Assembly (NCBI GenBank): GCA_947475165.1
Contig: CANJLD010000028.1
Span: forward strand, 1 to 38,459
From: Bacteroidota bacterium
GTDB taxonomy: Bacteria; Bacteroidota; Bacteroidia; Chitinophagales; LD1
Direction of reading: 5' to 3'
Length of the DNA: 38,459 bases
The position numbers and the translations under genes are program-made. Position 1 is the stretch's first letter, and every line of letters begins with the position of its first letter. The notes beneath the pieces were generated by a model. That model saw only the letters and a list, made by a program, of their open reading frames with translations, searched no databases and was not told the origin of the DNA. Of the stretch, positions 18,166-27,759 are shown one piece after another.

Positions 18166-18561
18166 TTAGTAAAAAGAGATAAGCGTGCTTCCGTAACCAT
18201 AGCGCATACTGTATTCGCTGCTGAAGGTTTTTACCTGCGGATGCTTTGCCAGCAACTTGTGAATTTCCTCTTTCAGTTTTCCTTTACCTAAACCGTGCAC
18301 TACGCGTAGTTCTAATTTGCCCGCAGCAATAGCTTTGTCGAGTGCTTTTTCAAATTCATCAAGTTGATGAAACAGGGCATCCTGTGTAGGAATTTTATCG
18401 CCCATCCTAGTTTTCTCTAAATGCAAATCAACCACCTCTTCGCGCATTTCAAACTTATTACTGAAGCCTGGATTGGTGGCACCCATCATATATTCACGCA
18501 ACAAGTCCGGGTCAAACTCTTTAGGTGTTTCATCAATCTTTTGTCCCTTCTTCTTTTTCAT
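18166..18561 (-). CDS. Smr-domain protein
   Basis: A 131-residue cytoplasmic protein with a basic N-terminus and a C-terminal Smr domain at about 42-130. The two Smr signature lines are visible: VVDLHLEK near residue 43 and RVVHGLGKGKLKEEIHKLL near 86. The domain occurs in nucleases and in MutS2, and standalone copies may cut nucleic acids or rescue ribosomes; in this short form the exact role is unknown. The ATG at 18561 is preceded by an A-rich leader. No operon partner is obvious; the next minus-strand gene upstream stops 78 bp away. Confidence 0.82.
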   Translation of the reverse strand: MKKKKGQKIDETPKEFDPDLLREYMMGATNPGFSNKFEMREEVVDLHLEKTRMGDKIPTQDALFHQLDEFEKALDKAIAAGKLELRVVHGLGKGKLKEEIHKLLAKHPQVKTFSSEYSMRYGYGSTLISFY

Positions 18562-19163: not shown

Positions 19164-19283
19164 TTACTCATCCTCACCTGCCACCGCATTCATGAATCTT
19201 TTCATAATTGTGAGCGGCAGACTAAGCATCCAGAGTGCGTAGTAAACCAGCATGAAAGCGATGATTGCAGGAATAGTTTTCAT
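19164..19283 (-). CDS. 39-residue membrane peptide
   Basis: A small hydrophobic peptide starting at ATG 19283 (MKTIPAIIAFMLVYYALWML) with one membrane helix at about residues 4-26, then a basic-plus-acidic tail (IMKRFMNAVAGEDE). A longer frame extends upstream but runs through the tRNA-like gene and is not credible. An A-rich leader (ATAAAACCAAACGCT) precedes the ATG. It lies 71 bp downstream of the tRNA-like RNA on the same strand and is followed by a terminator, so both are probably on one primary transcript. I do not recognise the family; short single-helix peptides can modulate membrane complexes or act as toxins. Confidence 0.55.
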   Translation of the reverse strand: MKTIPAIIAFMLVYYALWMLSLPLTIMKRFMNAVAGEDE

Positions 19284-19353
19284 AGCGTTTGGTTTTATAT
19301 CCTTAACAGTGGTATCCCGTCTTACCCCTAAGACAGGATATCCACCATTGTTG

Positions 19354-19503
19354 CTGTTGGGGTAGGGGTCGAACCTACAAGAGGCAGTTAGTCGTAGTTG
19401 CATTTCGTTCCGCATTACTGCGGAATCAAATGCAACAAGATTTATCCCGTTTACCTCACCCCCGAGACAGGGGGGCATGTCTGCCAAATTTCATCACCCA
19501 ACA
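19354..19503 (-). tRNA. tRNA-like RNA with giant (80-nt) variable region, loop anticodon GUC
   Basis: On the minus strand the sequence folds as a cloverleaf: acceptor TGTTGGG (19503-19497) with CCCAACA (19361-19355); D stem ATG/CAT with a GG-containing 12-nt loop; anticodon stem CCCCC/GGGGG with loop CTGTCTC (U33 present, anticodon GTC); T stem GTAGG/CCTAC with loop TTCGACC. Conserved U8, A14, G18G19 and the T-loop bases fit. Between anticodon and T arms lie 80 nt (19458-19379) closed by GAGG/CCTC and containing a hairpin of 9 bp, a 2x2 internal loop and 7 bp. G73 and the CUGUCxC loop match tRNA-Asp, whereas the 3-bp D stem looks like Leu/Ser tRNAs. CCA is not encoded. A strong promoter precedes it. 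It may be an unusual tRNA or a tRNA-mimicking leader of the 39-residue peptide. Confidence 0.6.
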
Positions 19504-19526
19504 ATATCTTTCACAGAACGATGATG

Positions 19527-19558
19527 TAAATATAACAGACAGGGCAGTTTATTGCAAA
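19527..19558 (-). promoter_or_regulatory. Bacteroidota-type promoter for the tRNA-like RNA
   Basis: On the minus strand TTTG (19558-19555), a 20-bp spacer and TATATTTA (19534-19527) match TTTG-N19-21-TAnnTTTG with one mismatch. The -7 box ends 23 bp before the tRNA-like 5' end. Confidence 0.6.
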
Positions 19559-19644: not shown

Positions 19645-20124
19645 ATGGCTCTGCATTACGAAATCGACAACACCGATTTACAGATATTGAACATACTGAT
19701 GGAAAACGCCTTTACTCCCTATACAGAAGTGGGGAAGAAATTGTTCATCAGCCCCGGCACCGTGCATGTTCGCATGAACAAAATGGAGAAACTGGGCATT
19801 GTAAAGCATCCGCAGCTGCAAATAGATTTAGGAAAACTGGGAATGGATGTAACCGCTTTTATTGGCGTGTATCTCATTCGCAGCGATATGTATGATAAGG
19901 TAGTAACACAATTAAAGAAGATAGATGAAATACTTTCCTGCAATTACACCACCGGTAATTATTCGCTTTTCTTAAAAATAGTTTGCCGCGATACGCAGCA
20001 TTTGCGCGAAGTGTTGCACGATAAACTACAAAAGGTAGAAGGTATCAGCCGGACAGAAACCCTTATCTCTCTCGAAGAAAGTTTCAGCAGACAGATAAAG
20101 ATTAAGTTGGAAAAAGGGAAATAA
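19645..20124 (+). CDS. Lrp/AsnC family transcriptional regulator
   Basis: DNA-binding regulator of 159 residues. The N-terminal helix-turn-helix at about 8-58 has IDNTDLQILNILMENA and GTVHVRMNKMEKLGIV. The C-terminal ligand-binding (RAM) domain at about 70-150 has FIGVYLIRSDMYDKVV and TTGNYSLFLKIVCRD. Members form octamers and sense amino acids. The gene is divergent from the tRNA-like RNA, with the two promoters in a 141-bp space, so it could regulate that transcript or itself; this is inference from position. The ATG at 19645 has an A-rich leader. Confidence 0.92.
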   Translation: MALHYEIDNTDLQILNILMENAFTPYTEVGKKLFISPGTVHVRMNKMEKLGIVKHPQLQIDLGKLGMDVTAFIGVYLIRSDMYDKVVTQLKKIDEILSCNYTTGNYSLFLKIVCRDTQHLREVLHDKLQKVEGISRTETLISLEESFSRQIKIKLEKGK

Positions 20125-26879: not shown

Positions 26880-27759
26880 TTTCTCGCGGAGGGCGCGGAG
26901 ACGCGGAGAAATACAAGCAATTAAATTATGAAAGACATAATTGACCCTAAGCTACCTGAGAATATTTTAGCTTCTAAAATAATTTCTATTTGTATTGAAG
27001 TTCATAGAATACTTGGTCCCGGATTATTTGAATCTGTTTACGAAGACGCGTTAGCTTATGAATTTGAAAAGGCAGGAATTCATTTTAAGCGGCAAGAGCC
27101 AATTTCAGTTATTTATAAAGACACTGTTCTTGGAGTTGGTTTTATTGCTGATTTTATTGTTGAGGGCTTAGTAATTATAGAACTAAAATCAATAGAATCG
27201 CTGGGCGCTGTTCATAAAAAACAATTGGGTACTTATTTAAAACTTACTAAACTTCGTTTGGGGCTTCTCATTAATTTCAATGAGGAATTATTGAGAGATG
27301 GATTGAAACGTATTGCCAATAATTTAAAATAGCATGTAATCTCTCGCGGAGTGCGCAGAGGCGCGGAGAAATAGAAGAATAGCAAACAACAAAAACTTAT
27401 AACAGCATTTTTGACCTTTGCGACCTTCGCGAGATACATCATAATCTCTCGTGAGGAACGCGGAGGCGCGGAGAAATAGAAGAATTTTAAATAACAAAAA
27501 CTTATAACAACATTTTTGACCTTTGCGCCCTTCGCGAGATACATCATAATCTCTCGCGGAGTGCGCGGAGGCGCGGAGAAATAGAAGAATTTTAAATAAC
27601 GAAAACTTATAACAGCATTTTTGACCTTTGCGCCCTTCGCGAGATACATCATAATCTCTCGCGGAGTGCGCGGAGGCGCGGAGAAATAGAAGAATTTTAA
27701 ATAACAAAAACTTATAACAACATTTTTAACCTTCGCGCCTCCGCGAACTCCGCGAGAAA
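26880..27759 (+). mobile_element. Putative element: GxxExxY gene plus repeats within terminal inverted repeats
   Basis: The left end (26882-26909) and the reverse complement of the right end (27730-27757) agree at 23 of 28 positions and extend by TT/AA outward. Inside are the GxxExxY gene and a 4 x 105 bp array whose units carry the same ends. No target duplication is evident. Calling it mobile is inference. Confidence 0.5.
26928..27332 (+). CDS. GxxExxY protein (PD-(D/E)XK nuclease-like)
   Basis: A 134-residue protein of the GxxExxY family. The name motif is G32-L-F-E35-S-V-Y38 in GPGLFESVYEDAL. A PD-(D/E)XK-type core is visible with D75 (GFIADFIVEG) and E85-L-K87 (VIIELKS), so a metal-dependent nuclease is plausible; no activity is established to my knowledge. 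The ATG at 26928 lies 17 bp after a TCTCGCGGAG terminal repeat, and the stop at 27332 is 5 bp before a 105-bp repeat array with the same end sequence. The gene is thus enclosed by inverted repeats, and it may act on them. Base composition is more AT-rich than ftcD, which fits later arrival. Confidence 0.85.
   Translation: MKDIIDPKLPENILASKIISICIEVHRILGPGLFESVYEDALAYEFEKAGIHFKRQEPISVIYKDTVLGVGFIADFIVEGLVIIELKSIESLGAVHKKQLGTYLKLTKLRLGLLINFNEELLRDGLKRIANNLK

Follow-up and report, generated by a model that had tools for sequence, protein, structure and literature searches.

A widespread family of tRNA-like RNAs with a giant variable arm and aspartate-type identity letters, encoded beside AsnC-type regulators in Bacteroidota

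The window, the whole stretch of 38,459 nucleotides that we analysed (contig CANJLD010000028.1 of the Bacteroidota assembly GCA_947475165.1), carries on its minus strand a gene for a tRNA-like RNA, next to a divergent regulator gene. An earlier note, made from the sequence alone, had reported a tRNA-like gene at 19354-19558. The observation is real, and all of the cloverleaf parts were located on the minus strand, the note having named no strand; the span given also takes in the promoter, and the gene proper runs from 19503 to 19354. Membership of a family shared with phages, the AsnC neighbour and the U1-A72 pair are additions to that note. The features of the locus are as follows.

19354..19503, minus strand: tRNA-like RNA of 150 nt, from U1 (19503) to G73 (19354); family-model match of 144.5 bits at 19352-19503
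19497..19503, minus strand: 5' strand of the acceptor stem, UGUUGGG, with first pair U1-A72 (sequence reading, covariation)
19477..19494, minus strand: D arm with 3-bp stem and Leu-type loop AAAUUUGGCAGA (compared with host tRNA-Leu)
19459..19475, minus strand: anticodon arm with 5-bp stem and loop CUGUCUC; GUC at 19468-19466, U37 at 19465, C38 at 19464
19381..19457, minus strand: giant variable arm, with stems GAGG/CCUC and CGG/CUG, internal loop AUAAA/CUAA and a lineage-specific hairpin
19362..19378, minus strand: T arm with 5-bp stem and loop TTCGACC (sequence reading, covariation)
19355..19361, minus strand: 3' strand of the acceptor stem, CCCAACA (sequence reading, covariation)
19511..19519, minus strand: leader motif GTTCTGTGA, boxA-like on weak evidence (boxA being the name we take to apply); this copy itself deviates from GYTCTT
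19527..19558, minus strand: promoter of Bacteroidota type, TTTG-N20-TATATTTA, with TTTG at 19558-19555 and TATATTTA at 19534-19527
19645..20124, plus strand: divergent AsnC-type (Lrp/AsnC family) regulator, 159 aa (Pfam, NCBIfam, structure match)
19164..19283, minus strand: small hydrophobic ORF downstream of the RNA

The promoter, the 7-bp acceptor stem, the T loop and G73 are all present in the window as the earlier note had described them. C74 is encoded at 19353, directly after G73, and the host tRNAs likewise encode C74 after the discriminator. The variable region of this copy spans 19458-19379 and, at 80 nt, exceeds that of elongator tRNAs, in which it comprises at most about two dozen nucleotides. 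The extra DNA sits in the variable arm, outside the anticodon loop, as had been remarked. The small hydrophobic ORF, to which an ORF in 8 near-relative loci is related and for which Pfam gave no match, is lineage-specific and probably lies outside the RNA system. Farther away, an ORF at 27324-27707 (minus strand) lies over a direct repeat (SARDYDVSREGRKGQKCCYKF... several times) and is probably a DNA repeat read through, not a protein.

Existing tools pass over the gene. ARAGORN found no tRNA in the window; Rfam gave 0 matches at gathering score over the window, RF00023 included, and only spurious miRNA matches between 19200 and 19700 at E up to 10; and a scan of the host genome with RF00005 passed over the tRNA-like RNA. 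By DNA search that genome holds a single copy of it, and ordinary tRNAs are present, tRNA-Asp(GUC) among them. Searches of the open-access PMC literature listed no paper whose title or abstract describes this RNA.

A DNA search of 99 relatives recovered both conserved halves of the RNA in most near kin, with a variable middle. Using a covariance model that, like the set of cellular copies, rests on GUC copies, and counting a genome as RNA-positive when its best E-value was 1e-25 or lower, we found the family in 171 of 298 genomes of the order and in 40 of the 395 genomes of a phylum sample. Of these 40, 17 fall in the order and 20 are spread over four more families of the same class (f23, f28, f29 and f30), and the remaining 3 are from f68, one family outside the class. 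Among the phylum-sample matches listed, members score at least 95 bits and the rest are below 60 bits with lengths of 73-90 nt; the latter are taken to be ordinary tRNAs. The family is widespread across the order and present in other Bacteroidota, with Chitinophaga silvisoli and Niastella sp. among the named carriers, and up to five tandem copies occur in one fetched stretch. Spread by plasmids was rejected, as a search of PLSDB gave no match. One copy, L035 (JASGCP010000019.1), comes from a contig that is assigned to a Phycisphaerales MAG and may be mis-binned. A 76-nt relative without the giant arm, with loop CTATCTC, was seen at L159:2537-2614 (66.9 bits); its genome is GatB-positive and belongs to f29, whose two other matching members are long-form. 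Neither L035 nor L159 has AsnC nearby.

Structure is best judged from an alignment of 38 copies, in which 98.2% of cells are paired. Cells changed on both sides number 104, compared with 26.2 in shuffles (0 of 500 shuffles reach 104) and at most 19 when the alignment was slid; pairs with a two-sided change number 15, compared with 8.9 in shuffles. The covarying stems are the acceptor, anticodon and T stems and the base of the variable arm. Covariation among homologues, the test on which the earlier note had staked its proposal beforehand, was thus found, and it rules out a chance hairpin. Folding of single sequences is less informative: the window copy has a z of -4.6 that arises from its local hairpin, and three relatives folded singly gave z-values near 0 (0.22, -0.37 and -0.27), so that the evidence for structure is the covariation.

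The variable arm combines a conserved base with a changeable tip. Its conserved parts are a 4-bp base stem, a 3-bp stem and an internal loop, AYAAA/CUAA, whose letters are well kept in 109 copies (the A's of AYAAA in 106-107, Y in 101 and CUAA in 105-108). Hairpins beyond this loop are lineage-specific. The structured 80-nt region that had been described is present, but the 16-bp, two-part hairpin within it is not kept in relatives. Length to G73 in the 109 copies has a median of 148 nt; the shortest copy is the 76-nt L159, and the next has 108 nt. A tRNA carrying an intron was considered and rejected, as the insert lies in the variable arm, is structured, and is short in one locus (L030).

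Identity letters were counted in a set of 109 distinct copies from cells; because these had been collected for their likeness to GUC copies, the counts lean towards conservation. In this set U1, A72, G73, C74, U35, C36, C38 and A20a, as well as the tRNA invariants U8, A14, G18, G19, T54T55C56 and A58, occur in all 109. G34 is found in 105, with C, U or A at that position in the other 4. According to PMC9976931, aspartate identity resides in G73, G34, U35, C36 and C38, and GatCAB is favoured by U1-A72 and opposed by G1-C72 and U20a. The strong AspRS set is thus present together with the GatCAB set (U1-A72 present, U20a absent), in agreement with the Asp-type anticodon loop and G73 that had been pointed out at the outset. 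Two AspRS elements are missing: G1-C72 occurs in 0 of 109 copies and G10 in 6. Among the host tRNAs C38 is confined to Asp and Glu, and among those listed only tRNA-Asn and tRNA-Gln start with U1. For LeuRS, the expected A73 is replaced by G73 throughout. For SerRS, G73 and G2-C71 are present, C72 is found in 0 of 109 copies, and C11 is found in 15, so that C11-G24 is mostly absent.

The remainder of the molecule resembles tRNA-Leu; the earlier note had likened the D arm to Leu/Ser. The host tRNAs nearest to the family model are tRNA-Leu UAA and CAG (44 and 42 bits), host tRNA-Asp gave no match to it, and three other host tRNA-Leu gave none at default filters. With type II tRNA-Leu the RNA shares the D arm, the base of the variable arm and the T arm, and its body is tRNA-Leu-like; it differs in having G73 instead of A73, U1-A72, an Asp-type anticodon loop and a variable region several-fold longer. 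With tRNA-Asp it shares G34, U35, C36, C38 and G73, whereas it has U37, U1-A72, A10 and the Leu-type body where tRNA-Asp has A37, G1-C72 and G10. All 35 host tRNA loops have both U33 and a purine at 37; in the family, U33 occurs in 94 of 109 copies and position 37 is U in 102, C in 4 and G in 3. A pyrimidine 37 in 106 of 109 copies makes decoding by the RNA unlikely and, like the 80-nt variable region, agrees with the view that this is no ordinary tRNA.

We then considered the neighbourhood, using 78 of 89 loci. Eight were dropped as duplicates or near-duplicates (L008, L043, L114, L149, L151, L152, L153 and L160), and L037 (cut upstream), L035 (filed under Phycisphaerales) and L159 (the short relative) were dropped as well. 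In 64 of the 78 loci an AsnC-type gene is divergent from the RNA at a distance of 122-223 bp, an arrangement that recurs in several families of the class and also in a family beyond it. In the 40 largest neighbour clusters, AsnC is the only protein common across families. Other neighbours are lineage-specific, such as a gene that we take to be trmB-like (10 loci) and an Smr-domain gene (11 loci). The latter was observed in near-relative loci and encodes a protein near the RNA in the window itself, at 18166-18561 on the minus strand.

The window regulator scores 160 bits against the NCBIfam AsnC model, with the next model at 69, and is called only AsnC-type because it falls short of the equivalog cut-off of 227. 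Its best match of solved structure is E. coli AsnC (2cg4, E=1.1e-33), and the AsnC model is also the best for six regulator proteins from other loci. The TTGxYS motif, shared by E. coli AsnC in the alignment, is kept in 62 of 70 regulator loci (duplicates included). Across the order sample, all RNA-positive genomes but one (G120) carry AsnC, 68 of 69, versus 18 of 80 RNA-negative genomes (Fisher p 3e-24, phylogeny ignored). Two of the genomes counted as RNA-negative, G123 and G153, contain the RNA up to a contig end that leaves just its 5' half; with these corrected, 16 AsnC-positive genomes are without the RNA, some of their loci being cut by contig ends. We observed that AsnC-positive, RNA-negative genomes keep short hairpin RNA-like elements on the divergent side of AsnC: elements of ~50 nt with a GATGAGGAGC loop and a T run at L258, L260, L262 and L273 (G056, G068, G090 and G080), and different, stem-closed elements at L256 and L264 (G031 and G132). 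AsnC may have other small RNAs as partners.

Upstream of the RNA, the promoter TTTG-N(18-22)-TAnnTTTG occurs within 90 nt in 24 of 78 regions, versus 0.1 in letter shuffles, and a slightly wider pattern within 180 nt also precedes 9 of 29 host tRNAs. GYTCTT is found within 90 nt in 27 of 78 regions, versus 3.0 in letter shuffles; it is in none of 14 loci that do not adjoin AsnC and, since it also precedes 6 of 29 host tRNAs, is no special mark of the family. A TTG-N9-CAA dyad within 180 nt is present in 34 of 78 upstream regions, versus 3.6 in letter shuffles and 0 of 29 host tRNAs. AsnC may use this dyad as its operator, although in many copies it coincides in part with the -33 box, and its exact form is absent from the window. 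For comparison, E. coli AsnC is reported to activate asnA, which converts Asp to Asn, and this activation is abolished by Asn (PMC4482635). The parallel would be an AsnC-type regulator tied to the step from Asp to Asn; in E. coli its partner is the enzyme gene (PMC4482635), whereas here the linked gene is that of the RNA.

In the order sample GatB, searched as a marker for GatCAB, accompanies the RNA in 40 of 41 genomes and occurs in 36 of 58 RNA-negative ones (p 2e-5, phylogeny ignored); the sole exception, G113, is 86%-complete. In a class sample it is present in 11 of 11 RNA-positive versus 2 of 20 RNA-negative genomes listed; of the 33 GatB-negative genomes in the search behind these counts, 13 were not listed by name. 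Four genomes, G061, G104, G109 and G114, are without RNA, AsnC and GatB together (absence being read from missing rows), and their families (f17, f18 and f20) hold many positive genomes; in G007 the RNA and AsnC are absent and GatB is kept. GatB is also common without the RNA, both in the 36 of 58 genomes above and in most genomes of other classes in the sample.

AsnRS is present in 97 of 99 genomes, and GatCAB is therefore not needed for Asn-tRNA-Asn. It may be kept for Gln-tRNA: of the Bacteroidetes genomes in PMC3927822, one has gatCAB without GlnRS, one has both, and 12 have GlnRS only, a pattern that leaves room for a glutamine role here. Bdellovibrio, Deinococcus and Thermus, as described in PMC4206432, possess GatCAB together with AsnRS and GlnRS; a non-discriminating AspRS lets them form Asn on tRNA-Asn. 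The same U1-A72 pair and the same coexistence of AsnRS with GatCAB are seen here; those organisms use a decoding tRNA with a non-discriminating AspRS, whereas here the RNA itself would be the chimera (PMC4206432). The idea that the RNA replaces missing Asn synthetases was rejected, as there is no association with AsnB-family genes: TIGR01536 is present in 35 of 41 genomes with the RNA and in 49 of 58 without it, so that nothing marks the RNA as the sole source of Asn.

The family is also carried by viruses. Pattern scans of IMG/VR and blastn yielded 37 viral records, namely 36 viral contigs and the 636-kb phage LR756504.1, with copies that all score at least 100 bits, one being cut at a contig end. 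Two of the pattern scans required GTC-N-C, so the anticodon seen in viral copies is subject to ascertainment bias; when the anticodon letters were dropped from the pattern, 45 further contigs and no family member were returned (best 52.8 bits). For ten contigs, one protein each was compared with PHROGs, and 10 of 10 matched (terminase, portal, polymerase, helicase, primase or exonuclease). The RNA lies among or next to other tRNAs in LR756504.1, G674, G675, G676 and G677. Ordinary tRNA-Asp is present in phage records W01 and G677 and was not seen in the fragments G674, G675, G676 and G679, which may be incomplete. No AsnC gene was found in the DNA examined around the 37 viral loci, and therefore the viral RNA should act in trans. 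We also observed that many phage inserts have a conserved GGGTTGACCAC followed by differing palindromes (GTTGCAAC, TTGTGCACAA, GCTAGC and GCGCGC; for example at L190:14427-14575, L167:4452-4600 and L138:706-850), perhaps small hairpins or a dimer contact. The GGGTTGACCAC element is found in the variable arm of some lineages.

Two known classes of RNA invite comparison. Like tmRNA, the family would be a stable tRNA-like RNA; tmRNA has a tag ORF and no anticodon arm, whereas this RNA has a full anticodon arm with a covarying pair and no tag ORF was seen in it. Replacement of tmRNA was rejected as a function, as 88 of 99 genomes, including that of the window, have a separate tmRNA over cut-off (39 of 41 with the RNA and 49 of 58 without it); weaker tmRNA-model matches elsewhere are probably ordinary tRNAs. 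The UCA anticodon that marks tRNA-Sec is absent from the RNA. A long variable arm is shared with tRNA-Sec and the allo-tRNAs described in PMC7609411, from which the RNA differs by an acceptor/T axis that is not lengthened (7+5 bp), its 3-bp D stem and its far longer arm.

Computation shows that the RNA family exists, what structure it shares, which determinants it keeps, that it is syntenic with AsnC and that it co-occurs with AsnC and GatB; from these results we infer all biochemical steps of a pathway to which we give about an even chance. The RNA would be a dedicated, probably non-decoding adaptor that is charged with Asp, amidated to Asn by GatCAB and controlled by AsnC. The divergently encoded regulator, whose sensing of asparagine we infer from its likeness to E. 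coli AsnC, would control the RNA gene. The transcript would be trimmed and given CCA as host tRNAs are, and the cell's AspRS would charge it with Asp via G34, U35, C36, C38 and G73. GatCAB, which accepts U1-A72 and rejects G1-C72 and U20a, would amidate the resulting Asp-RNA to Asn-RNA. Y37 and the giant variable arm would bar the RNA from decoding, such that Asn is not inserted at Asp codons, and the Asn would then be released or handed on. A chimeric RNA working with an ordinary AspRS would be the mirror of the non-discriminating AspRS in Deinococcus or Bdellovibrio, and a phage-borne copy would act in trans on host enzymes.

The main rival, which we consider rather unlikely, is a tRNA-like RNA within the AsnC regulon that acts as a regulator or decoy and donates no amino acid; it would bind AspRS, GatCAB or another tRNA-binding factor, or offer its UGUCUC loop or variable arm to a target. 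Linkage to AsnC, carriage by phages and the loss of two AspRS elements would all suit such an RNA, as would the conserved internal loop of the variable arm and, in some lineages, GGGTTGACCAC, which go beyond the needs of a tRNA. Yet G73, C74, A72 and the T loop are kept in 109 of 109 copies, which suggests that the 3' end is used, and the GatCAB pair, just as constant, is not required of a decoy. That SerRS charges the RNA, recognising it in the manner of tRNA-Sec through the long variable arm and G73, seems very improbable to us. A change from A73 to G73 does switch Leu to Ser identity in several systems (PMC9976931), and G2-C71 is there, but A72 instead of C72 in every copy, the scarcity of C11 (15/109) and the Leu-type base of the variable arm speak against SerRS, which would also leave the fixed anticodon loop unexplained.

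We regard it as improbable, too, that the RNA is a true elongator that reads GAU and GAC as a tRNA-Asp isoacceptor, its giant variable arm notwithstanding. Its GUC anticodon (105/109) and its position in phage tRNA arrays would fit this role; the rarity of purine 37 (3/109) and the imperfect U33 (94/109), both invariant in the host tRNAs, do not, and an ordinary tRNA-Asp exists in the host and in two of the phage records. Hardly credible is a functionless remnant, whether a decayed tRNA or a tRNA gene hit by an intron or mobile element: variable inserts and tandem copies might be read in this way, but the covariation, the wide distribution and the confinement of the inserts to one arm, where they surround a conserved internal loop, oppose it, and conservation already contradicts it.

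What is established is that an RNA unannotated at least by ARAGORN and Rfam is conserved over much of an order, in other Bacteroidota and in phages. If the adaptor pathway is true, tRNA-dependent amidation, asparagine sensing and non-coding RNA would be linked, a tRNA would have been turned into a metabolic adaptor, the persistence of GatCAB beside AsnRS might be understood, and phage tRNA arrays would hold a new kind of RNA cargo. We tentatively go further, at somewhat less than even confidence, and suggest a class of RNA taken out of decoding to serve as a coenzyme-like metabolic adaptor, switched by Asn via AsnC, loaded by AspRS and converted by GatCAB, which phages carry to draw on host metabolism. 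It would, to our knowledge, be the first case of an RNA dedicated to making an amino acid outside translation.

Phage DNA also contains Leu-type tRNA-like sequences of 120-150 nt that have other insertions and score 32-44 bits against the family model (L172:9978-10112, L172:4586-4706, L191:3170-3300, L176:7212-7350 and L193:5951-6101); these are possibly further odd tRNA-like RNAs. On a 141-kb viral contig, a 113-nt tRNA-like match (L308:1115-1227) scores 44.8 bits and has a different anticodon loop and body, and a phage tRNA on a Leu-like body at L193:5575-5661 is called tRNA-SeC(tca) by ARAGORN.
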